DNA from: Saccharothrix ecbatanensis
GTDB lineage: Bacteria; Actinomycetota; Actinomycetes; Mycobacteriales; Pseudonocardiaceae
Assembly (NCBI RefSeq): GCF_014205015.1
Contig: NZ_JACHMO010000001.1
Span: 124,001-188,000 of the forward strand
DNA: 64,000 nt
Direction of reading: 5' to 3'
The position numbers and the translations under genes are program-made. Positions 40,302-57,700 of this stretch are shown piece by piece; positions within the stretch are counted from its first letter, which is position 1, and each line of letters opens with the position of its first letter. The notes beneath the pieces were generated by a model, which saw only the letters and a program-made list of their open reading frames with translations, did not search any database and was not told the DNA's origin.

Positions 40302-42637
<2,336 letters not shown>

Positions 42638-43929: not shown

Positions 43930-44484
43930 TCAGTCGTCGAGCAGTGCGGCGATCGAAGGAATGCGGCGAATCCTGGCCAGGCAGCGCTGGCGGGTCGGGC
44001 CGATCGACCCGCGTGGGATGCCGAGGTTCTCCACGATCGTGTCGTAGGGCGTCGGCGGGTCGGAGAACAGCAGCGAGAGCAGCGTGCGGTCGCGTTCCGG
44101 CAGCAGGACGAGCGCCTGGCGCAGGGCCTCGTGCCGCTCGGTGTCGAGCAAGGACACGTCGGCGGCGGGCTCCGACTGGTCGACCGGCTCGTCGTCGGTC
44201 GGGGTGTGGCGGTGCCTGCCACGCATCAACATGAGGCATTCTCGCCTGGTCGTGGTGGCGAGCCAGCCCGGCAGCGCTTCCGGCTGACGAATGGTTCTCA
44301 GGTTCAGCACGAGGCGCAGCCAGACGGTGGCCCCGACGTCGTCGGCGTCCGCGCCCCGGATGCCGTGCCGCAGGCACACCGCCCGGACCAGCGGGGTGTA
44401 GCTGCGCACGATGTCCCGCCAGGCCGATTCCCAACCGCGCGCGGCGTGGTCCAAGAGCAGCGTGTCCGTTGTGTTGTGACTCAT
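43930..44484 (-). CDS. sigma-70 family (ECF-like) RNA polymerase sigma factor
   Basis: A 184-residue sigma factor with region 2 (RDIVRSYTPLVRAVCLRHGI, then DADDVGATVWLRL and PGWLATTTRRECLM) and region 4 (LVLLPERDRTLLSLLFSDPP, YDTIVENLGIPRGSIGPTRQ). There is no long C-terminal extension and no anti-sigma gene beside it. It diverges from the SARP gene by 105 bp, so both probably respond to the same promoter region. Actinobacterial RiPP and other secondary-metabolite clusters often carry such a sigma factor; its role here is inferred from position. Confidence 0.88.
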   Translation of the reverse strand: MSHNTTDTLLLDHAARGWESAWRDIVRSYTPLVRAVCLRHGIRGADADDVGATVWLRLVLNLRTIRQPEALPGWLATTTRRECLMLMRGRHRHTPTDDEPVDQSEPAADVSLLDTERHEALRQALVLLPERDRTLLSLLFSDPPTPYDTIVENLGIPRGSIGPTRQRCLARIRRIPSIAALLDD

Positions 44485-44548
44485 CGCAGGCCCCCAATTT
44501 CGTTGGTCGGGTTCGACCGCTTCACGATTTCGGTTCGCCCTGCTCGCA

Positions 44549-44570
44549 GACCTTGCGGCGACCTTGCGGA
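44549..44570. promoter_or_regulatory. 11-bp direct repeats, candidate SARP box
   Basis: GACCTTGCGGC (44549-44559) is followed immediately by GACCTTGCGGA (44560-44570). Direct repeats with an 11-bp period are the classic binding layout of SARP/AfsR activators. They sit between the sigma factor and the SARP gene. Confidence 0.55.
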
Positions 44571-44589
44571 GCGACAAGCATCGATTGAT

Positions 44590-47358
44590 ATGGAATTCCG
44601 GTTGTTCGGTGAGGTACGGGTGCTCGCGGGCGACCGGCCGCTGGACGTCGGAACGCCGCGGCAACAGGCCGTGCTGGCAGCCCTCCTTGTGGACGCCGGC
44701 CGTCCGGTCGACATCGAGACCCTCATCGACCGGGTCTGGGACGAAGCGCCGCCCGTCGAGGCGCGGAACGTCCTGTACTCGCACCTCAGCCGCATCCGGC
44801 GGCTGCTCGCCACCGCCAGTGGGCACACCGGCGTCCGGGCCCGGCTGGAGCGTCGCAGCGCCGGGTACGTGCTGGACGTCGATCCGGACCTCGTGGACCT
44901 GCACCGGTTCGCCCGGCTGACGGCACGCGGCCCGGCGGGGGACACGGCCCGCGCGGCGGCGTTGACGGAGGCGCTGGACCTGTGGAGCGGCCCCCCGCTC
45001 GCCGGGATCTCCGGTGACTGGGTCGACCAGGTCCGGAACAGCTGGCGGCGGCGCAGGCTCGACGCGGTGACGGCGTGGGGCGAGGTGGAGCTGCGGCTCG
45101 GCCGGGCCGACGCGGTGACCGCCGCGCTGCCCGACGTCCTCGCGGAGTACCCCCTCTCCGAGCCGCTGGAGGCCCTGTTCATGCGGGCGCTGCACGCGGC
45201 CGGGCGGGACGCGGAGGCGATCGAGCGCTACGCCGTCATCCGGGCCAGGCTCGCCGACGAGCTGGGCACCGATCCCGGCGCCGAGCTGCGCGCCCTGCAC
45301 AGCGCGATCCTGCGCGGTGAACTGCCGCAGTCCGAGCCGGACAGTCCACTCGCGACACCCGCCCAACTCCCACCGGACATGCCCGGTTTCGCGGGCCGCG
45401 AGGAGGAGCTGCGGCTGCTGGACGACCTGGCGGGCGGCAGTGCGACGGCGGTGCGGATCGTCGCCGTGTCCGGCACAGCGGGCGTGGGCAAGACGGCACT
45501 GGTCGTGCACTGGGCACATCGGATGCGCGGGCACTTCCCCGGTGGGCAGCTGTACGTGAACCTGCGCGGGTTCGACCCGACCGGCTCACCGGTCACGCCC
45601 GCCGAGGCGGTGCGGCGGTTCCTGGACGCGTTCGAGGTGTCGCCGCAACGCATTCCGGTCGGCTTCGAGGCGCAGGTCGGCCTGTGCCGCAGCCTGCTCG
45701 CGAACCGCCGGGTGCTGGTGGTGCTGGACAACGCCCGCGACGCCGAGCACGTGCGCCCATTGCTGCCCGGGTCGCCGGACTGCCTGGTGCTGGTGACCAG
45801 CCGGGACCAGCTGTCCGGACTGGTGGCCGACGGCGCCCGGCACCTGACCGTGGACCTGCTCGAAGCCGACGAGGCGCGGCGGCTGCTGGCCGGACGGCTC
45901 GGCGCCGAACGGATCGCGGCGGAGCCCCGTGCGGTGGACGAGATCGTGGCGCTGTGCGCGCGGCTGCCGTTGGCGCTCGCGGTGGTGGCGGCCCGTGCGG
46001 CAACGCACCCGAAGTTCGGGCTGGTGGCGCTGGCGCGTGAGCTGCGCGCGGCGCGGGGGAGTCTGGACGAGTTCTCGGGCGCCGATCCGGCGACGGACCC
46101 GAGGGCCGTGTTCTCGTGGTCCTACCTCCAGTTGACCGCCGACGCGGCCCGGCTGTTCCGGTTGACGGGCCTGCACCCCGGACCCGACCTCGGCACCCAT
46201 GCCGCGGCGAGCCTGGCCGGACTGCCGTCGCGCGCGGTGCGCCCGTTGCTCGCCGAACTGTCCCGGGCGCACCTCGTCACTGAGCACAGCCCCGGTCGCT
46301 ACACCTGCCACGACCTGCTGCGCGCCTACGCCTCCGAGCAGGCGCAGGTGCTCGACCTCGAGCCCGACCGGCGTGCGGCCCTCCGGCGGACGCTGTGCCA
46401 CTACCTGCACACCGCGAACGACGCGGACCGGCTGCTCGACCCGCGCCGGGAGGAACTTCCCACGCTGACGGCACTTCCGCCGGGCGTCACGCCCGAACCG
46501 GTCGCCGACCGCACGGAGGCACTGGCCTGGTTCGACGCCGAACACCGCGTGCTGCTGGCGGCGATCCAGCAGGAGCCGGCGTTCGACGTCGAGGTGTGGG
46601 AGCTGATCTGGGCGATGCGGCGGTTCCTCGCGCACCAAGGCCACTGGCAGGACGAGATCGACTCGCTGAACGTGGCGCTGGCCGCCGCACGACGCCTCGG
46701 CGACCCGCTCAAGCAGGCGTTCGCGCACTGCTACAAGGGCTGCACCTACGTGTGGTTCGGCAAGTACGAGGACGCGTGTGCCGAACTGGATGTCGCGCTC
46801 TCCCTCTACCGCGAGGCGGGCGATCGCGTCGGCGAGGCTTACGTCCAGTTCTACCACTCGTGGCTGCTCGACCGGCAGGAGCGCAACGTCGAGGCGCTGT
46901 CGCACGCCGAGCAGGCGTTGGAGCTGTTCCGGGCGGCGGGCCACCAGGCGGGCCAGGCCAAGGTGCTGAACGCGGTCGGGTGGTTCCACGCGCTGCTCGG
47001 CGACCACGAGACGGCCATCGGGTACTGCCGCAAAGCCCTTGACCTGCAAACGGAACTCGGCGACCAGCTCGGGGCGGGCCAGACCTGGCACAGCCTCGGC
47101 TACGCCTACCAGCAGCTCGAAGACCACGGCCGGGCGGTGGCCTGCTACCAGGCCGCGGTGGACCTGTTCGAGGCGTCCGGCTACCGGATCAACGAGGCGC
47201 ACGTGCTGTCGTCCCTGGGCGACGCGCTCCACGACGCGGGGGACGTCGACGCCGCCCGTGACGCCTGGCAGCGGTCCGTCGACATCCTCGACCAGCTCAG
47301 CCACCCGGACGCGGACGACACCCGGGTCAAGCTGACGAAGTCCACATCGGACACATGA
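44590..47358 (+). CDS. AfsR/SARP-family regulator with NB-ARC and TPR domains
   Basis: A 922-residue pathway activator. The N-terminal OmpR-like winged helix (about 1-95: MEFRLFGEVRVLAGDRPL, then LYSHLSRIRRLLA) is followed by the BTAD domain (~98-245), an NB-ARC STAND ATPase with a P-loop SGTAGVGKTAL (around residues 294-304) and VLVVLDNARD, and C-terminal TPR repeats (~640-900; e.g. DACAELDVALSLYREAGD, ALSHAEQALELFRAAGHQ). Such proteins switch on secondary-metabolite clusters in response to a ligand or stress. The RiPP precursor gene follows after 13 bp on the same strand, so it is probably the cluster-specific activator. The direct repeats just upstream suggest self-control. Confidence 0.92.
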   Translation: MEFRLFGEVRVLAGDRPLDVGTPRQQAVLAALLVDAGRPVDIETLIDRVWDEAPPVEARNVLYSHLSRIRRLLATASGHTGVRARLERRSAGYVLDVDPDLVDLHRFARLTARGPAGDTARAAALTEALDLWSGPPLAGISGDWVDQVRNSWRRRRLDAVTAWGEVELRLGRADAVTAALPDVLAEYPLSEPLEALFMRALHAAGRDAEAIERYAVIRARLADELGTDPGAELRALHSAILRGELPQSEPDSPLATPAQLPPDMPGFAGREEELRLLDDLAGGSATAVRIVAVSGTAGVGKTALVVHWAHRMRGHFPGGQLYVNLRGFDPTGSPVTPAEAVRRFLDAFEVSPQRIPVGFEAQVGLCRSLLANRRVLVVLDNARDAEHVRPLLPGSPDCLVLVTSRDQLSGLVADGARHLTVDLLEADEARRLLAGRLGAERIAAEPRAVDEIVALCARLPLALAVVAARAATHPKFGLVALARELRAARGSLDEFSGADPATDPRAVFSWSYLQLTADAARLFRLTGLHPGPDLGTHAAASLAGLPSRAVRPLLAELSRAHLVTEHSPGRYTCHDLLRAYASEQAQVLDLEPDRRAALRRTLCHYLHTANDADRLLDPRREELPTLTALPPGVTPEPVADRTEALAWFDAEHRVLLAAIQQEPAFDVEVWELIWAMRRFLAHQGHWQDEIDSLNVALAAARRLGDPLKQAFAHCYKGCTYVWFGKYEDACAELDVALSLYREAGDRVGEAYVQFYHSWLLDRQERNVEALSHAEQALELFRAAGHQAGQAKVLNAVGWFHALLGDHETAIGYCRKALDLQTELGDQLGAGQTWHSLGYAYQQLEDHGRAVACYQAAVDLFEASGYRINEAHVLSSLGDALHDAGDVDAARDAWQRSVDILDQLSHPDADDTRVKLTKSTSDT

Positions 47359-47371
47359 GAGGCAAGGAACA

Positions 47372-47746
47372 ATGACCGAATCGTTCATCACGGCCGAAGA
47401 CATCGAAGAACTCTTCGCGAAGCTCGACGAGGTGGAGCTGAACGACCCGCAGCGCGCCCTGCTCTCGGCGATCCTCAAGGTCGCCGGCGACGTCACCGAT
47501 GTCACCGACCTGTCGGAGGAATCGGAGGAATCGGAGGACAAACGTTCGTTCAGCGACCAGTTCGCGACCTCGTTCACCCCGCACCAGGCCGCCTTGATCG
47601 TCGAGTACGTCGAGGCTCCCGCGGGCCCGAGCCTGATCAGCCGGGTCACGCCGCCTTGTCCGCCGCTACCGGCCGGTTCCGCGACCCCTGCGCTGATCAG
47701 CAGGCTGATCAGCAGAAACGTCCGCCCGGACAGCTCGCAGCCGTGA
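47372..47746 (+). CDS. RiPP precursor-like peptide
   Basis: A 124-residue peptide encoded directly before, and overlapping, a radical SAM maturase. The acidic N-terminal part (TAEDIEELFAKLDEVELNDPQRALLSAILK) resembles leaders of natural-product precursors found with this maturase family, although the grouping is by pattern recognition. An acidic stretch (residues 40-57) and a segment SFSDQFATSFTPHQAALIVEY follow. The likely core is the C-terminal ~41 residues, which have a different composition: Pro-rich PPCPPLPAG around the only cysteine (Cys96), flanked by three Leu-Ile-Ser-Arg motifs (SLISRV; ALISRLISRNV). The ATG has a good ribosome site (GAGAGGCAAGGA). The mature product and cleavage site are unknown. 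Confidence 0.75.
   Translation: MTESFITAEDIEELFAKLDEVELNDPQRALLSAILKVAGDVTDVTDLSEESEESEDKRSFSDQFATSFTPHQAALIVEYVEAPAGPSLISRVTPPCPPLPAGSATPALISRLISRNVRPDSSQP
47630..47715. repeat. repeated CTGATCAGC coding Leu-Ile-Ser in the precursor core
   Basis: The 9-mer CTGATCAGC occurs three times in the core-encoding part of the precursor gene (near 47632, 47691 and 47704), each encoding Leu-Ile-Ser and followed by an Arg codon. The use of identical codons suggests recent internal duplication of a core motif. Confidence 0.7.
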
Positions 47747-49575
47747 CCGTGCCGACGGTCCTGGTGTCGATGCCGTTCATGCAGGTCGATCGTCCGTCGA
47801 TCCAATTGGGACTGTTGAAGGCGATCGGCGAGGCGAACGGCTTCCCGGTGCGCACCCTGCACGCGAACCTCGACTTCGCGGCACGGATCGGGCCGGACTA
47901 CTACCGGCTGCTCGCCGAGCACCGGGGCAGGCAGATCGGCGACTGGCTGTTCTCCGTGGAGGCTTTCGGCGCTGCCGCACCGGACGTAGACGGCGAGTTG
48001 CCCGCGGAGTTCGCCGACGAGTTGGCCTACTTGGCAAGGGAGTCCGGGTCGGTGCGCGACCGGCTGGTGCGAACGCGCGACCACGACGTGCCCGCGTTCC
48101 TGGACGCGTTGGTGGACGGGTTCGACTGGCACGGCACGAGGGTCGTCGGCTTCAGCTCGACGTTCCAGCAGAACACCGCCTCGTTCGCGTTGGCCCGGCG
48201 GCTGAAGGAACGGTTCCCGGACATCGTCACGGTGTTCGGCGGCGCGAACTTCGACGGCGAGATGGGCCTCGAACTCGTGCGTTCGGTGGACTGCGTCGAC
48301 TACGCGGTCATCGGTGAGGGGGACCGGGCGTTTCCGCAGCTGTTGGCGGCATTGGCGGCGGGAACGGATCCCGCCGAGGTTCCGGGCGTCGCCCGCCGTG
48401 CCGGTGACCGGGTGGTGGCGGCCGTCGCGTCGCCACCGCTCGAGCACCTGGACGACCTGCCCGCGCCGGACTACGGCGAGTTCTTCGAACGGTCGGCTTC
48501 GTTGGGCCTGCCGACCGCGGAGGTGTGGCTGCCGTTCGAGTCGGCGCGGGGCTGTTGGTGGGGAGCCAAGCACCATTGCACGTTCTGCGGCCTCAACGGC
48601 ACCACGATGAAGTTCCGCGCGAAGTCGCCGCAACGCGTGCTGGACGAGCTGGTCGGGCAGTCGCGGCGCTACCACGCGTTCCGCTTCGAGGCCGTCGACA
48701 ACATCCTCGACCCGGCCTACCTGAAGGAGCTGTTCCCCGCACTGGCCGCCGGCCGCCACGACTTCGAGATCTTCTACGAGGTCAAGGCGAACCTGACGAG
48801 GGAACAGCTGAAAGTCCTGGCGCACGGCGGTGTCACGCACCTCCAGCCAGGGTTGGAGTCGCTCAGTTCGGCCGTGCTCCGGCTGATGGACAAGGGTGTG
48901 CGGGCGGCGCAGAACGTCAACCTGCTGCGTTGGGCCCGGTACTACGGCTTGCAGGTGGGCTGGAACATCCTGTGGGGCTTCCCCGGTGAAACCGAGGAGG
49001 ACTACCTGGCCCAGGCTGCCGTCGTGCCGCACCTCGTGCACCTGCAACCGCCGGCGAGCGCCGCCGAGATCTGGCTCGAACGCTTCAGCCCCCTGTACAC
49101 GCGGCCCGACCGGTTCGGGCTGCTGCGCCGCAGTTCCGAGGCCAGCTACCGGCACGTGTACCCGGACAGCGTGGACATCGACCGGGTCGCCTACTTCTTC
49201 GACTACGAGTTCGCCGACGCCCTGCCGCCGTCCGCTTATGCGCTGTTGGCGAAGGCGGTGGCGGAGTGGTCGGAGGCGTGGTCGCACAGCCGGCCGTCGC
49301 TCACGTTCCGGTCCACGCGCGGGTTCCTCCAGATCGACGACCGGCGGCAGCAGGGGCACGACGGCACGTACACGTTCCACGACACGCTCGCGGACATCTA
49401 CCTCGCGTGCAGCGAACGACCGACCACGGCTTCGGCCGTCCACTCCGCGTTGGGGCTGGACCGGCCGGTGGCGGACGTCGAGGCGGCGTTCGAGCAGTTC
49501 GCGGAACGCGGGCTCATGTTCCTGGACGGCAACCTGGCGCTGTCCCTCGCGCTCCCCGCCACGCCTGGGCGCTGA
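47743..49575 (+). CDS. RiPP maturation radical SAM/B12 C-methyltransferase
   Basis: A 610-residue enzyme of the 'RiPP maturation radical SAM protein 1' type. The N-terminal ~230 residues form a cobalamin-binding-like domain (VSMPFMQVDRPSIQLGLLKA; VVGFSSTFQQNTASFALARR; VFGGANFDGEMG). The radical SAM core follows, with the cluster motif C271-x7-C279-x2-C282 (RGCWWGAKHHCTFCGLNG), the spacing this family uses instead of the common CX3CX2C. Other hallmarks are FEAVDNILDP, YEVKANLTREQL, NLLRWARYYGL and WGFPGETEEDY. The expected reaction is methylation of unactivated carbons in the precursor core. Its GTG overlaps the precursor stop (GTGA), tying the two together in translation. Its last 62 bp overlap the convergent MFS gene. 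Confidence 0.9.
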   Translation: MTVPTVLVSMPFMQVDRPSIQLGLLKAIGEANGFPVRTLHANLDFAARIGPDYYRLLAEHRGRQIGDWLFSVEAFGAAAPDVDGELPAEFADELAYLARESGSVRDRLVRTRDHDVPAFLDALVDGFDWHGTRVVGFSSTFQQNTASFALARRLKERFPDIVTVFGGANFDGEMGLELVRSVDCVDYAVIGEGDRAFPQLLAALAAGTDPAEVPGVARRAGDRVVAAVASPPLEHLDDLPAPDYGEFFERSASLGLPTAEVWLPFESARGCWWGAKHHCTFCGLNGTTMKFRAKSPQRVLDELVGQSRRYHAFRFEAVDNILDPAYLKELFPALAAGRHDFEIFYEVKANLTREQLKVLAHGGVTHLQPGLESLSSAVLRLMDKGVRAAQNVNLLRWARYYGLQVGWNILWGFPGETEEDYLAQAAVVPHLVHLQPPASAAEIWLERFSPLYTRPDRFGLLRRSSEASYRHVYPDSVDIDRVAYFFDYEFADALPPSAYALLAKAVAEWSEAWSHSRPSLTFRSTRGFLQIDDRRQQGHDGTYTFHDTLADIYLACSERPTTASAVHSALGLDRPVADVEAAFEQFAERGLMFLDGNLALSLALPATPGR

Positions 49576-50731
49576 CGAGCAGCCCGGCGGCCACGGTGAC
49601 CGCCACGAACATCCAGCCGCCGGTGTGGACGCCGTGGCGTTCGCTGACGAGCCCGAAGACGATCGCCACGGGGAGAAAGGCGATCCAGGACAGCGTGCTG
49701 ACGCCGGACGCGACTCCCGTGCGGACGGTGGCGGGGACGGCGTCGTGCAGGAGGCGTGAGACGTGGATGCTCGCGGCCACGACCAGCAGTGCGAGCAGGA
49801 TCTGAGCACCTGTCACGACGAGGACGTGCGCGCTGGTGGTGAGCGTCAGGCCGGCCGCCGTCATCAGCACGGCCACGGCTGCCGCTGTGCGTGGCCGGTC
49901 GAGGTCGAGTTTTCCGGCGAGCAGCCCGCCGAGTCCGAGGGCGGAGACGAGTCCGGCCCAGTACGGGCCGTACAGGAGCGCGGGTGCGGCCGGCGCCACC
50001 AGCCACAGCGGTCCGAATTCGAGCAGCAGTTGCAGGATGAGCGCGGCCAGCACGGCCATGGTGACGACCGGCAGCAGTCGGCCGCCTCGGGTCAGGGTGC
50101 GGCAGGTGAGGGCGACGTGCGCGCTGAGTGAGGTCGTGCCCGTGGCACGGTGCAGCTGCGGCTCGGTGAACCGGAGGAGGGCGACGATCGACAGCGCCAC
50201 GAACGGCACCGTCACCAGGTACGTCGTGCGGGTACCGGCGAGCCCGGCCAGCGCACCGCCCGCGAGCGCGCTCGTCACCAGGGCGGCGCTGTTGACCAGT
50301 CGGACACGGCCGAGCTGCCGCTCGAATCCGTCGCTGTCACCGGTCTCCTCCAGGACGGTGTCGTACACGACGGCGTCCATCGTTCCCGAGTACATCGCGA
50401 AGAAGACGCCCAGTGCCAGCGCGCTGAGGAAGTACATGGGCACGCTGTGGCTGAGGCCGCCGAGCAGTGCGCTGACCATGAGCGCCACGCTCGACAGGAC
50501 GAGGACACCGCGACGGCTCCACCGGTCCGCGAGGATTCCGGATGGCACCTCGATGACCGGCACGATCGCGGCGTACGCGGCGGCCATCAGCCCGATGCTC
50601 GCCGCGTCGAAACCGATCTCGTTCATGAACAGCTTCTCGACCGGCACCCAGAAGCCCACGCCTTGGAGGAACGCGGCGGCTTGCAGCGGGAGCAGGCGTC
50701 GCTTCAGCCGGGATCGCTGGACGGTGGTCAC
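49514..50731 (-). CDS. MFS transporter, probable RiPP exporter
   Basis: A 405-residue major facilitator with about 12 membrane helices and the MFS loop motif after helix 2 (GILADRWSRRGVLV). The GTG start follows GAGGAG. Its 3' end overlaps the radical SAM gene tail-to-tail by 62 bp, which makes an association with the cluster likely; export of the mature peptide is the simplest role. It shares a promoter region with the YCII-sigma module on the other strand. The real specificity cannot be read from sequence. Confidence 0.8.
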   Translation of the reverse strand: MTTVQRSRLKRRLLPLQAAAFLQGVGFWVPVEKLFMNEIGFDAASIGLMAAAYAAIVPVIEVPSGILADRWSRRGVLVLSSVALMVSALLGGLSHSVPMYFLSALALGVFFAMYSGTMDAVVYDTVLEETGDSDGFERQLGRVRLVNSAALVTSALAGGALAGLAGTRTTYLVTVPFVALSIVALLRFTEPQLHRATGTTSLSAHVALTCRTLTRGGRLLPVVTMAVLAALILQLLLEFGPLWLVAPAAPALLYGPYWAGLVSALGLGGLLAGKLDLDRPRTAAAVAVLMTAAGLTLTTSAHVLVVTGAQILLALLVVAASIHVSRLLHDAVPATVRTGVASGVSTLSWIAFLPVAIVFGLVSERHGVHTGGWMFVAVTVAAGLLVSAQAWRGARGTAPGCRPGT

Positions 50732-50873: not shown

Positions 50874-51248
50874 GTGAAGTTCATGCTGATGATCTGGAGC
50901 AACCCGGAGAACTGGGACGCGTTGCCCCCGGCGGACCGGGCGGCGTTGGCGGGTGACGCGGTGGCCGAGCACGCCGCCATCGACGCCGACCTGCTCCGCT
51001 CAGGCGAGCTGGTGATCTCGGCGGCGTTGGCCGACCCGATCACCTCCCGCGCCGTCCGGGTCCGCGACGGGGTCGTGACCAGCACCGATGGGCCGTATGC
51101 GGAGGCGAAGGAGTACTTGGCCGGGTACTACCTGGTCGACTGCGAGAGCGTGGACCGGGCGGTGGAGATCGCGGCGCGGATACCGGACGCGCGGTGGGAA
51201 CGGGTCGAGGTCCGGGCGGCCATGGACGTCGCGGGCCTGGAGATGTGA
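50874..51248 (+). CDS. YCII/DGPF-domain protein
   Basis: A 124-residue dimeric alpha-beta barrel-type protein of the YCII-related family (MKFMLMIWSNPENWDALPP; TSTDGPYAEAKEYLAGYYLVD). The DGPF-like motif DGPYAE is the family mark. It is followed with no gap by an ECF sigma factor, the standard partner in ECF42-type modules, and probably acts as a sensor or helper of that sigma factor. A second module of this kind lies at 55983. Confidence 0.88.
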   Translation: MKFMLMIWSNPENWDALPPADRAALAGDAVAEHAAIDADLLRSGELVISAALADPITSRAVRVRDGVVTSTDGPYAEAKEYLAGYYLVDCESVDRAVEIAARIPDARWERVEVRAAMDVAGLEM

Positions 51249-52466
51249 GTGGACTCCGTCGAGGCCGTGCTGCGTGAGCAGGCGCCGCACGTGCTCGGGG
51301 CGTTGGTGCGCCATCACGGGCGGTTCGACGCGTGCGAGGACGCGGTGCAGGAGGCGTTGCTCGCAGCGGCCGTGCAGTGGGGTGAACACGGCGTGCCGGA
51401 GAGCCCGCGCGGCTGGCTGATCACCGTTGCCTCACGTCGGCTCACCGACCAGTGGCGCAGCGACACGGCACGTCACGTGCGTGAGGCTGCCGCACTGCCC
51501 CACAAGCAGATGGCTCCGGCGGCGGATGCCGTGCCCTCCGGGGAGGACGACACGTTGGTGCTGCTGTTCCTGTGCTGCCACCCGTCGTTGTCCCCGCCTT
51601 CACAGGTGGCGTTGACGCTGCGGGTGGTCGGCGGGCTGACCACGGCCCAGATCGCCCGCGCGTTCCTGGTCCCCGAGGCCACGATGGCGCAGCGGATCAG
51701 CCGGGCCAAGCAGCAGATCAAGGCGGCCGGGGCGCGGTTCGACCTACCGCCGCAGGACGCGTGGCGGCAGCGGTTGGACGTGGTGCTGCACGTGCTGTAC
51801 CTGGTGTTCAACGAGGGCTACGTCGCCACATCAGGCCCGGACGTGCATCGCGCCGAGTTGACGGACGAGGCGATCCGGCTCGTCCGGCAGATCCGGCGCC
51901 TGCTGCCCGACGACGGCGAAGTGGCCGGGCTCTTGGCGCTGATGCTGCTCACCGACGCACGGCGGCTCGCGCGCACCCAATCCGACGGAAGCCTGATCCC
52001 ACTGGCAGAGCAGGATCGCCGCCAGTGGAACCAGGACGTGCTGAGGGAAGGCGTCGGCATCGTCACCGAAACCCTGACCCGGTCCCGGATCGGCCCCTAC
52101 CAACTCCAGGCCGCGATCGCCGCCGTGCACGCCGAGGCACGGCGTGCGGAGGACACCGACTGGCCGCAGATCGTGGCGCTCTACGACGTGCTGACCCAGT
52201 TCTCGCCGAACCCGGTGGTCACGCTGAACCGTGCCGTAGCGGTGGCGATGGCGCACGGCGCGCAAGCGGGCCTCGACCTGATCGAGGAACTGGCTGGCGA
52301 CCGGCACTTGGCCGACCACCACCGCCTCCACGCCGTCCGCGCCCACCTGCTGGAGCTGGCCGGCCGTCCGGAGCCCGCCCGTGCCGCGTTCGAGGAGGCC
52401 GCGCGGCGGACGACGAGCACACCTGAACAGCGTTACCTGCGTGCGCGGGCCGACCGGCTCTCCTAG
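51249..52466 (+). CDS. ECF sigma factor, ECF42-like, with C-terminal extension
   Basis: A 405-residue extracytoplasmic-function sigma factor. Region 2 (FDACEDAVQEALLAAAVQW, GWLITVASRRLTDQWRS) and region 4 (VALTLRVVGGLTTAQIARAF, TMAQRISRAKQQI) are followed by a long helical, TPR-like extension with DVVLHVLYLVFNEGY and NPVVTLNRAVAVAMAHG. These are marks of the ECF42 group, which has no anti-sigma factor and is controlled through its extension and a YCII partner. The GTG starts directly after the YCII stop. It overlaps the convergent LURP-one gene by four bases. Confidence 0.9.
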   Translation: MDSVEAVLREQAPHVLGALVRHHGRFDACEDAVQEALLAAAVQWGEHGVPESPRGWLITVASRRLTDQWRSDTARHVREAAALPHKQMAPAADAVPSGEDDTLVLLFLCCHPSLSPPSQVALTLRVVGGLTTAQIARAFLVPEATMAQRISRAKQQIKAAGARFDLPPQDAWRQRLDVVLHVLYLVFNEGYVATSGPDVHRAELTDEAIRLVRQIRRLLPDDGEVAGLLALMLLTDARRLARTQSDGSLIPLAEQDRRQWNQDVLREGVGIVTETLTRSRIGPYQLQAAIAAVHAEARRAEDTDWPQIVALYDVLTQFSPNPVVTLNRAVAVAMAHGAQAGLDLIEELAGDRHLADHHRLHAVRAHLLELAGRPEPARAAFEEAARRTTSTPEQRYLRARADRLS

Positions 52467-55982: not shown

Positions 55983-56402
55983 ATGAAGTACATGCTGATC
56001 ATGCGTGCGACCGACGAGGCCTACAAGAACATGGGCGAGATCGACTTCAACGAGATGTTGGAGACGGTCGGCAAGTTCAACGACGAGCTGATCCGGGCCG
56101 GTGTGCTGGTCGCCGCGGAAGGCCTCGCCGAGGCGGAGGAAGGCGTGGTCGTCGACTACTCGTCCGAGCCGCCCGTGGTCACCGACGGCCCGTACGGCGA
56201 GACAAAAGAGCTGTTCAACGGGTTCTACATCCTCAACGTGACGTCGAAGGAAGAGGCCGTCGAGTGGGCGAAGCGGTCGCCGATCAGCGGTCCGGGCTTC
56301 AAGACCGAGATCCGCCGGGTCGCCTCGATCGACGAGTTCCCGCAGGACAACGAGTGGGTCCAGAAGGAGCGGGCCTGGCGCGAAGCCACCGGCCAGCTCT
56401 GA
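55983..56402 (+). CDS. YCII/DGPF-domain protein
   Basis: A 139-residue YCII-related protein (MKYMLIMRATDEAYKNMGEI; VVTDGPYGETKELFNGFYIL) with the DGPYGE motif. The ATG follows GGAGAGACTGA. It pairs with the ECF sigma factor 14 bp downstream and is a divergent paralogue of the 50874 gene. It probably takes part in signal perception for that sigma factor. Confidence 0.88.
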   Translation: MKYMLIMRATDEAYKNMGEIDFNEMLETVGKFNDELIRAGVLVAAEGLAEAEEGVVVDYSSEPPVVTDGPYGETKELFNGFYILNVTSKEEAVEWAKRSPISGPGFKTEIRRVASIDEFPQDNEWVQKERAWREATGQL

Positions 56403-56416
56403 GCGGACCGACCGGA

Positions 56417-57700
56417 ATGCCCGCACCCACCGATCGCGCCGCCCGTGACGCCGTCGCCGCCGTGTGGCGGATCGAGTCGGCACGGATCGTCGGCGCCCTC
56501 GCGCGGTACACCGGCGACTTCGCGCTGGCCGAGGACATCGCCCAGGAGGCGTTGGCCGAGGCACTCGTGAGCTGGCCGCGTGACGGCGCGCCACGCAACC
56601 CCGCCGGGTGGCTGCTCACCGTCGGGAAGCGCCGTGCGATCGACGTGTTCCGCCGGCATTCCGCCCTGGACGAGAAGTACGCCGTCCTCGCCCGTGACCT
56701 GGGTGAGGGCGGCGCCTTCTCGGGCAGCACGTCCGAGCAGGCCGAAGACGTGCTGTGGGACCCGGACCAGATCGACGACGACGTGCTCGCGCTGATGTTC
56801 ACCTCCTGCCACCCCGTGCTGTCACGGGAGGCGAGGGTGGCGCTGACGTTGCGCGTGGTCGGGGGTCTGACCAGCGACGAGATCGCCAAGGCGTTCCTCA
56901 TCCCGCCCGCCACCGTGCAGGCCCGGATCACCAGGGCCAAGAAGACGCTCGGTGCGGCGCGGGTGCCGTTCGAGGTGCCGCCGGCCGAGGAACGGCGCAA
57001 GCGGCTCGGCTCGGTGCTCAACGTGATCTACGTGATCTTCACCGAGGGGTCCACGGCGAGTTTCGGCGGTGACCTGATCCGGCTGGACCTGGCCAGCGAG
57101 GCACAGCGCCTGGCACGGGTGCTGGCGCGGCTGATGCCGGACGAGCCCGAGGTCCACGGCCTGCTGGCGTTGCTCGAACTGACCGCGGCCCGCTTCCCCG
57201 CCCGCACCGGGCCGGACGGCGAGCCCGTGCTGCTGGACCACCAGGACCGCCGCCGCTGGGACCGTGCCGCGATCCGCCGTGGACGGGCCGCCCTCGCCCG
57301 TGCGGAGCAGGTCGGCCGCGGTCTGGGCGCGTACGGCTTGCAGGCGGCCATCGCCGAGTGCCATGCCGTCGCACCGTCCGTCGAGGCGACGAACTGGGAC
57401 CGCGTCGTGCTCATCTACGAGGCGCTGGGTCGGCTCGCGCCGTCGCCGGTGGTCGACCTCAACCGGGCGGTGGCCGTGTCCATGGCGAAGGGACCGGCCG
57501 CCGCGCTGTCGATCGTGGACGACCTGGTGGCGGCGGAGACCCTGGCCCACTCGTACCTCCTGCCGAGCGTCCGCGGTGAACTCCTCATCCGCCTGGGACG
57601 TGCGGAGGAGGCGCGCACGGAGCTGGAACGCGCCGTGCGGCTGTGCGGCAACGAGCGTGAACGCCTGGTGCTGGAACGCAAACTCGCCGACCTCGCCTAG
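56417..57700 (+). CDS. ECF sigma factor, ECF42-like, with C-terminal extension
   Basis: A 427-residue ECF sigma factor, paralogous to the 51249 gene. Region 2 (FALAEDIAQEALAEALVSWP, GWLLTVGKRRAIDVFRR) and region 4 (VALTLRVVGGLTSDEIAKAF, TVQARITRAKKTL) are followed by the group's helical extension (LNVIYVIFTEGSTASFGG; PVVDLNRAVAVSMAKG). The ATG is chosen where the conserved N-terminus begins. It has no anti-sigma partner; the YCII gene upstream is the expected one. Confidence 0.9.
   Translation: MPAPTDRAARDAVAAVWRIESARIVGALARYTGDFALAEDIAQEALAEALVSWPRDGAPRNPAGWLLTVGKRRAIDVFRRHSALDEKYAVLARDLGEGGAFSGSTSEQAEDVLWDPDQIDDDVLALMFTSCHPVLSREARVALTLRVVGGLTSDEIAKAFLIPPATVQARITRAKKTLGAARVPFEVPPAEERRKRLGSVLNVIYVIFTEGSTASFGGDLIRLDLASEAQRLARVLARLMPDEPEVHGLLALLELTAARFPARTGPDGEPVLLDHQDRRRWDRAAIRRGRAALARAEQVGRGLGAYGLQAAIAECHAVAPSVEATNWDRVVLIYEALGRLAPSPVVDLNRAVAVSMAKGPAAALSIVDDLVAAETLAHSYLLPSVRGELLIRLGRAEEARTELERAVRLCGNERERLVLERKLADLA

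Follow-up and report, generated by a model that had tools for sequence, protein, structure and literature searches.

Comparison with known systems

PoyC, a cobalamin (B12)-dependent radical S-adenosylmethionine (SAM) enzyme with a CX7CX2C cysteine motif, performs C-beta methylation of Ile3 and three Val residues, and the polytheonamide and bottromycin enzymes have been proposed to share this motif (accessible parts of PMC5682303 and PMC11285071). Here, we describe a locus of the soil actinobacterium Saccharothrix ecbatanensis in which a predicted enzyme of this kind is encoded behind a small peptide gene and a large Streptomyces antibiotic regulatory protein (SARP) gene. The locus lies in a stretch of 64,000 nucleotides, hereafter the window, which corresponds to positions 124001–188000 of a single 9.69 Mb contig. 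With moderate confidence, we consider it an autoregulated, self-contained module for a ribosomally synthesized and post-translationally modified peptide (RiPP), the product being PoyC-like and probably methylated at the beta carbon of Ile. Compared by the descriptions in the accessible text, PoyB/PoyC and the bottromycin methyltransferases resemble the window maturase in the CX7CX2C motif, the pairing of cobalamin with radical SAM and plausible Ile/Val-type targets, whereas the window unit differs in its leader, its minimal locus and the presence of a SARP in the operon.

Clavusporin-type pairs of a B12-radical SAM enzyme and a DUF5825 protein likewise represent RiPP C-methylation (accessible part of PMC12257519), but no DUF5825 gene was noticed at the window locus, and the C-terminal part of the maturase matched DUF5825 below the cutoff (E value, 0.01–0.15). 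Large SARPs of the RslR3, PolY and AfsR type have the same DNA-binding, BTAD, NB-ARC and TPR domains and are associated with 11-bp direct repeats (accessible part of PMC10972967); the window SARP differs in sharing its operon with one precursor and the maturase of that precursor, and it is not AfsR.

In the FxSxx and Haa cyclophane RiPP systems, an NB-ARC/TPR protein likewise adjoins the radical SAM peptide genes. The TPR ATPases of these systems are not known to carry a DNA-binding domain, and their radical SAM enzymes belong to another family. In contrast, the window SARP carries an N-terminal DNA-binding domain and scores far under the cutoffs of the HaaT (338.4 bits; cutoff, 1125) and FxSxx_TPR (68.7 bits; cutoff, 300) models. 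In the RRNPP and Rgg/RaS-RiPP loci of Bacillota, a regulator lies beside a small peptide gene, and in the RaS-RiPP loci a radical SAM enzyme is present as well. RRNPP regulators combine an XRE-type helix-turn-helix domain with TPR, and they sense peptides through the latter. The window system differs in phylum and in DNA-binding domain, as no XRE-type helix-turn-helix was found on the SARP by Pfam, and the Bacillota regulators have no STAND ATPase. While the component enzyme and regulator families are known, a search of titles and abstract openings found no paper on a SARP–TIGR03975 unit, and none on this combination, the precursor family or the dedicated promoter; this absence is weak because most subscription papers fell outside the search.

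A conserved regulator–precursor–maturase unit

The gene content and order reported in the first-pass annotation, namely a divergent sigma factor, a SARP, a peptide gene overlapping a radical SAM gene by GTGA and a convergent major facilitator superfamily (MFS) gene, were confirmed (Table 1). The SARP gene ends 13 bp before the precursor start, and the MFS gene converges with the maturase open reading frame (ORF) with a 62-bp overlap. The SARP matched PF00486, PF03704, PF00931 and PF13424 above the cutoffs, corresponding to the DNA-binding, BTAD, NB-ARC and TPR domains, respectively; against the AfsR equivalog NF053617, it scored 498.3 bits, under the cutoff of 1430.

Of the 80 loci, the 26 that are close actinobacterial ones were compared for the layout of the unit (loci and genomes are numbered with L and G, respectively). 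A SARP gene was located directly upstream of the precursor and maturase on the same strand at 23 of these; at L049 and L050 it lay on the far side of the maturase, while L054 had an unrelated SARP only. An upstream leader ORF was detected with an E value of 0.01 or less at 19 of the 23 SARP-upstream loci and more weakly at four. In a tree of 43 SARPs, made by a quick method without bootstrap and rooted at the midpoint, the SARPs of the 23 loci and of L049 and L050, 25 of the 26 SARPs near these maturases, were separated from the rest by a branch with an SH-aLRT of 98; 17 paralogues (14 of them from the own genome) fell outside this group together with the SARP near L077. The maturase tree contained the same small clades, with differences in the deeper branching (e.g., L044). 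From these sequence comparisons, the conserved core of the locus consists of SARP, precursor and maturase, and the SARPs form one clade.

Each of the other ORF clusters was present at no more than seven of the 26 loci, including, as named by eye, ABC-type (7), response-regulator and MFS-looking ones (5, at scattered positions); the ORF caller was crude and may miss genes, the sigma factor being among those missed. By tblastn, the divergent sigma factor was found at eight of the 80 loci at an E value of 1e-10, all within the nine loci with the promoter box described below. An initial view of the sigma factor as unconserved was therefore rejected, and its place in the cluster, as first annotated, holds for eight of nine box-type loci. 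In the DNA covered, the MFS gene was found at one of the 80 loci, the window, and was not present at L033 even though the L033 maturase is 92% identical. Because the gene is found at the window only, the earlier inference of export by this MFS protein fails, and MFS-based export was rejected.

Among 297 family genomes, 48 had a maturase match at 1e-60 or better, and 15 places in 14 genomes were at least 63% identical to the maturase. In the class sample, two of 394 genomes, one of them the own genome, matched the close maturase model at 1e-200. The next-best maturase matches in the own genome were partial and 29% and 26% identical. Separately, G153 (C12:146667–158163) and G247 (C11:263736–275235) each carried three maturase-like genes within approximately 12 kb, and L175 (G083:C5:406000–420000) had a ricin-type-lectin-like ORF between the precursor and a SARP without the box.

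Promoter element

Two copies of GACCTTGCGG, which the first-pass annotation does not mention, precede the SARP gene, with starts 11 bp apart. Units of 11 bp are classical SARP sites (accessible part of PMC10972967), and the pair has the 11-bp direct-repeat form by which target promoters of large SARPs are recognized. The CATCG downstream of the repeat is a possible -10 region. Of 23 SARP promoters tested, nine had a spacing-11 repeat with 8–9 of 9 matches (simulated p 0.000–0.040 each). In the own genome, the box pattern occurred once exactly and at no site with one or two mismatches; 14 other sites all had three mismatches, and a reversed-pattern control gave 20 matches.

The 297 family genomes contained 26 box sites with at most one mismatch. 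All ten exact matches (G000, G030, G065, G094, G131, G147, G148, G176, G245 and G268) were located approximately 3.0–3.2 kb upstream of a maturase, as were two one-mismatch boxes (G093 and G141), and a SARP DNA-binding domain with 64–100% identity followed all twelve. The other 14 of the 16 one-mismatch boxes lay away from the SARP promoter of the unit. Boxes L145, L148 and L157 were beside SARPs whose DNA-binding domain is 63–66% identical and which have no maturase close by, L146 and L174 were near a SARP with a 44% identical domain, and L169 (G083) was inside a unit, 3' of the SARP. The SARP control proposed in the first-pass annotation agrees with this conserved direct-repeat promoter, and we infer that the SARP binds the repeat in its own promoter.

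Two further types of site were observed. At L152 (6678–8683) and L154 (6522–8406), SARPs with a 60–65% identical DNA-binding domain had a one-mismatch box and a divergent small secreted-peptide-like gene; by eye, a single membrane segment replaces NB-ARC/TPR in these SARPs, which possibly constitute a second SARP–peptide pair. Upstream of the SARPs of L051, L053, L040 and L041, GCTGGA-type repeats with 12-bp spacing were present, most strongly at L051 and L053, and are perhaps the site of another SARP subgroup.

The maturase

The maturase scored 639.6 bits against the NCBIfam RiPP C-methyltransferase model TIGR03975 (cutoff, 281.85; residues 6–604 of 610), consistent with its earlier assignment to the RiPP-methylating type of radical SAM enzyme. 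The cluster cysteines C271, C279 and C282 form CX7CX2C and were invariant across a 35-sequence alignment. An AlphaFold2 model based on 35 relatives had a mean predicted local distance difference test score (pLDDT) of 92.6, with weaker values in the cluster loop at 271–290 (62–71). The fold of approximately the first 515 residues matched the cobalamin radical SAM enzymes OxsB, TokK, CysS and TsrM, the rows of this Protein Data Bank (PDB) fold search mostly spanning residues 1–519. On this model, the maturase has a predicted cobalamin-binding domain; PF02310 (B12 domain) scored 31.8 bits, slightly under the cutoff of 32.1. Based on these sequence features, the maturase is predicted to C-methylate the precursor.

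The C-terminal domain is predicted to have the beta3-alpha3 order that defines the RiPP recognition element (RRE) (PMC12710340); C-terminal RRE fusions are mentioned for proteusins by RRE-Finder. PqqD matched one of eight C-terminal pieces of maturase homologues, under the cutoff (E value, 0.0041). When PDB sequences were searched with the profile of the C-terminal domain, no RRE chain was among the matches listed; the top totals were tandem-repeat proteins in which no single stretch passed, and these were rejected as an artefact.

The precursor peptide

A check proposed in the first-pass annotation was a search for a conserved peptide ORF beside homologous maturases. Such an ORF was found: homologues of the 124-residue peptide occupy the same place beside related maturases, with a conserved helical leader and QF..SFTP segment. 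By this sequence evidence, the peptide is a real RiPP precursor, as first annotated. Small leader-like ORFs were present 5' of the maturase at each of the 14 nearest loci of the family that were read (L001 and L004–L016; L005 and L013 via an inner start). Matches to a leader hidden Markov model (HMM) beside maturases extended across actinobacteria and to Rhodoblastus, Yoonia and a Chloroflexota bin; the later E values are partly circular because the HMM was trained on its own matches. Inner start codons were chosen by the analyst for at least 17 of 40 precursors, and the set does not include second copies from the same genome (L004, L009, L010 and L016).

The best match among named records was from Saccharothrix sp. 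NRRL B-16314 (68%; locus L033). Compared with L033, dN and dS were 0.10 and 0.21 for residues 1–46, 0.53 and 0.36 for residues 47–60, 0.09 and 0.34 for residues 61–81, and 0.33 and 0.61 for residues 82–124, all rough values from few sites each. This constraint follows the predicted helix/tail layout, in a model of moderate confidence (pLDDT, 72; predicted template modelling score, 0.33; leader block pLDDT, 87–93 for residues 11–40 and 60 for residues 41–50). A search of approximately 5.8 billion proteins returned five matches including the precursor itself, and a profile of 37 precursors returned 27, with sensitivity limited for short divergent peptides.

The tail was first described as Pro/Cys-rich. 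It is Pro-rich, but the Cys part was overstated, as it contains a single Cys; it has no Tyr beyond residue 79. LISR occurs three times, at residues 88–91, 108–111 and 112–115, and divergent tails retain Ile-centred short motifs. In 33 precursors, Ile made up 7.6% of the last 20 residues against a background of 2.9%, and 30 of the 33 tails had Ile in this stretch (expected, 44%). These 33 were drawn from the 40 by omitting the remote L045, L057, L060 and both precursors of L062 and the uncertain L046 and L048.

No NCBIfam or Pfam model matched the precursor above the cutoff, which accords with the earlier statement that the core resembles no RiPP class that could be named. No nitrile-hydratase-like or Nif11 leader, as in proteusins and Nif11-type RiPPs, was listed for the precursor (E value up to 1) or for ten relatives (E value up to 10). 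Known leader families gave sub-cutoff matches and were rejected; the best of note was NF041299, "DynW-associated RiPP peptide", for L057 (E value, 0.023), and DUF4248 matched the window peptide (0.15).

Some relatives depart from this pattern. At L042, L043, L044 and L056 (upstream of 10001), a hydrophobic signal- or transmembrane-like stretch replaces the leader and the QF..(S/A)F motif is kept; at L042, L043, L046 and L056, four of the 25 SARP-clade loci, the leader HMM matched weakly (E value, 0.035–0.47). Leader-like N-terminal segments were also seen on larger proteins beside distant maturases, P450-like by eye at L062 (14067–15488; HMM E value, 6e-6) and L065 (9689–11143; 0.0016) and radical SAM/SPASM-like by eye at L060 (11191–13443; 0.012), where they are perhaps docking domains.

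Proposed working of the unit and alternative explanations

In the proposed working, the SARP would bind the 11-bp repeat within its own promoter and turn on one operon of SARP, precursor and maturase, perhaps together with the divergent extracytoplasmic function (ECF) sigma factor. The maturase would hold the helical leader of the precursor, probably via its RRE-like C-terminal domain, and, in the manner of PoyC, methylate the beta carbon of Ile in the three LISR repeats of the unstructured tail. Completion and release of the product would depend on a protease and a transporter whose genes lie elsewhere. Because the operon carries its own activator, whose strongest recognizable site is the promoter of this operon, the wiring would be that of a self-reinforcing switch.

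Several observations weigh against this explanation. The 11-bp repeat was absent from 14 of the 23 SARP promoters (p 0.25–0.99), and the box is thus a subgroup feature; in G083, the system is present but its SARP is not preceded by a box. Since SARPs may bind degenerate sites, the regulon could be wider. No peptidase or transporter was conserved at the locus. The RRE reading is a predicted fold order, and seven of the eight C-terminal pieces had no PqqD match. The first 40 residues of the precursors are also Ile-rich (4.6% against 2.9%), Val is not enriched in the tails (7.6% against 8.2%), and three of the 33 tails have no Ile in the last 20 residues. The Ile statistic counts related sequences as independent, and its p values merely serve as a guide for this reason. 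Since the tails are not alignable across the family, the modified residue is a guess, and for some B12-radical SAM enzymes the reaction is cross-linking and not methylation (accessible part of PMC12257519).

A tentative addition, which extends the self-contained module and does not exclude it, is that the modified peptide, or a part of it such as a LISR fragment, is a ligand of the SARP TPR domain and thereby sets the NB-ARC switch, giving a feedback loop with the sigma factor as output. In favour of peptide sensing, the peptide is repeatedly paired with a TPR-bearing switch. The conserved set is minimal, comprising regulator, peptide and maturase under a unit-specific promoter box, and NB-ARC/TPR proteins are a recurring part of other radical SAM peptide systems, to which the sub-cutoff HaaT and FxSxx_TPR scores of the SARP relate. 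Peptide-activated RRNPP regulators of Bacillota (PMC12445099) and AP-ATPase/TPR proteins coupled to peptide-processing genes (PMC7159879) are described in the accessible parts of these papers. The related SARPs of L152 and L154 adjoin a secreted-peptide-like gene, and the signal-like N-termini of L042, L043, L044 and L056 point the same way. However, the own genome holds 55 matches to the SARP, some partial, so that such regulators are common, and L042, L043 and L056 are among the weak leader HMM matches. In its full form, this proposal is speculative: the STAND/TPR SARP would sense the C-beta-methylated peptide of its own operon, to which the box is dedicated, with the ECF sigma factor as output in the box-type subgroup, as an undescribed kind of actinobacterial signalling. 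The tail motifs (LISR, IIR, IVR, YIKP, FIKP, SIGP, KIGR and VIC types) would then be private signals for each TPR receptor.

That the unit makes a C-methylated antimicrobial peptide under ordinary pathway-specific control, exported by the MFS protein, appears unlikely. SARPs usually activate biosynthetic clusters (accessible part of PMC10972967) and antibiotic RiPP pathways, that of bottromycin for one, include B12-radical SAM C-methyltransferases (accessible parts of PMC5682303 and PMC11285071), but none of the 79 other loci showed the MFS gene in the DNA covered, and the ABC-type and MFS-looking clusters reached at most seven of 26 loci, with the above limit of the ORF caller. That no gene for transport, proteolysis or immunity is conserved speaks against a standard antibiotic cluster, and the locus looks more like a self-contained peptide circuit because the one strong putative site of the regulator is its own promoter. 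We regard it as quite improbable that the maturase cross-links the tail through a C–C or ether bond without methylation. ApyD is a cross-linking enzyme, and its model (RiPP B12-radical SAM) scored 65 bits against a cutoff of 750; the window tail, with one Cys and no Tyr, also speaks against this. On the other hand, the cross-link of ortho-Tyr in biphenomycin-like RiPPs is made by a B12-radical SAM enzyme (accessible part of PMC12257519), and the tails of some relatives have Cys and Tyr close together, as in GKYCSRYIKP of L007. Highly doubtful, finally, is a role in which the peptide folds into a small partner or anti-activator of the SARP, the modification tunes that protein and no product is released. 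In its favour, constraint is stronger on the helices than on the tail and the peptide gene lies directly 3' of the SARP gene, but Ile motifs are kept in the tails of divergent relatives, and leader relatives occur beside maturases near which no SARP was detected (e.g., L057 and L062).

Features of the window

Table 1. Features of the locus, in window positions
Feature	Position	Strand	Remarks
ECF sigma factor gene	43930–44484	-	Divergent from SARP; sigma70-ECF 64.7 bits (cutoff, 42.9)
Conserved upstream promoter block CACGATTTCG	44523–44532	+	Present in eight of the nine promoters aligned; L037 lacks it
SARP-box-like direct repeat, GACCTTGCGG twice	44549–44569	+	Starts 44549 and 44560, 11 bp apart
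CATCG, 9 nt 3' of repeat	44579–44583	+	Spacing shared by all nine loci
Large SARP regulator, 922 aa	44590–47358	+	Pfam Trans_reg_C, BTAD, NB-ARC, TPR
RiPP precursor, 124 aa, ATG start	47372–47746	+	Homologues beside related maturases
Leader helices, residues 8–46	47393–47509	+	AlphaFold2 helices 8–20 and 25–46
Second conserved segment FSDQFATSFTPHQAALIVEYVE, residues 60–81	47549–47614	+	Predicted helices 60–67 and 70–81; motif kept in relatives
Tail, presumed core, residues 82–124	47615–47743	+	No regular structure predicted, low confidence
GTGA overlap of precursor and radical SAM ORFs	47743–47746		
B12-radical SAM maturase, 610 aa from GTG	47743–49575	+	TIGR03975
Maturase C-terminal domain, RRE-like beta3-alpha3 order, residues 520–588 and two strands to 601	49300–49545	+	DSSP on model; block pLDDT at least 90
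MFS transporter gene	49514–50731	-	Outside conserved unit; seen at 1 of 80 loci (window)

A scan of the window for Rfam families at gathering thresholds and for tRNAs found none. Elsewhere in the window, a YCII-domain gene is followed by an ECF sigma factor gene with DUF6596 by Pfam (50874–52466), and a second YCII/ECF sigma-like pair was seen by eye at 55983–57700. On the reverse strand, a 722-residue ORF at 40302–42470 appeared by eye to be a fusion of xylanase, polysaccharide deacetylase and cellulose-binding parts.

Significance

The locus is a compact, co-inherited unit of regulator, precursor and maturase with a nearly unique promoter box. The precursor family, which has no above-cutoff model in NCBIfam or Pfam, would give genome mining a further type of RiPP leader. 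With a unit this compact and a box this rare, PoyC-type roles outside large antibiotic clusters, together with the ligands of large-SARP TPR domains, become directly testable.

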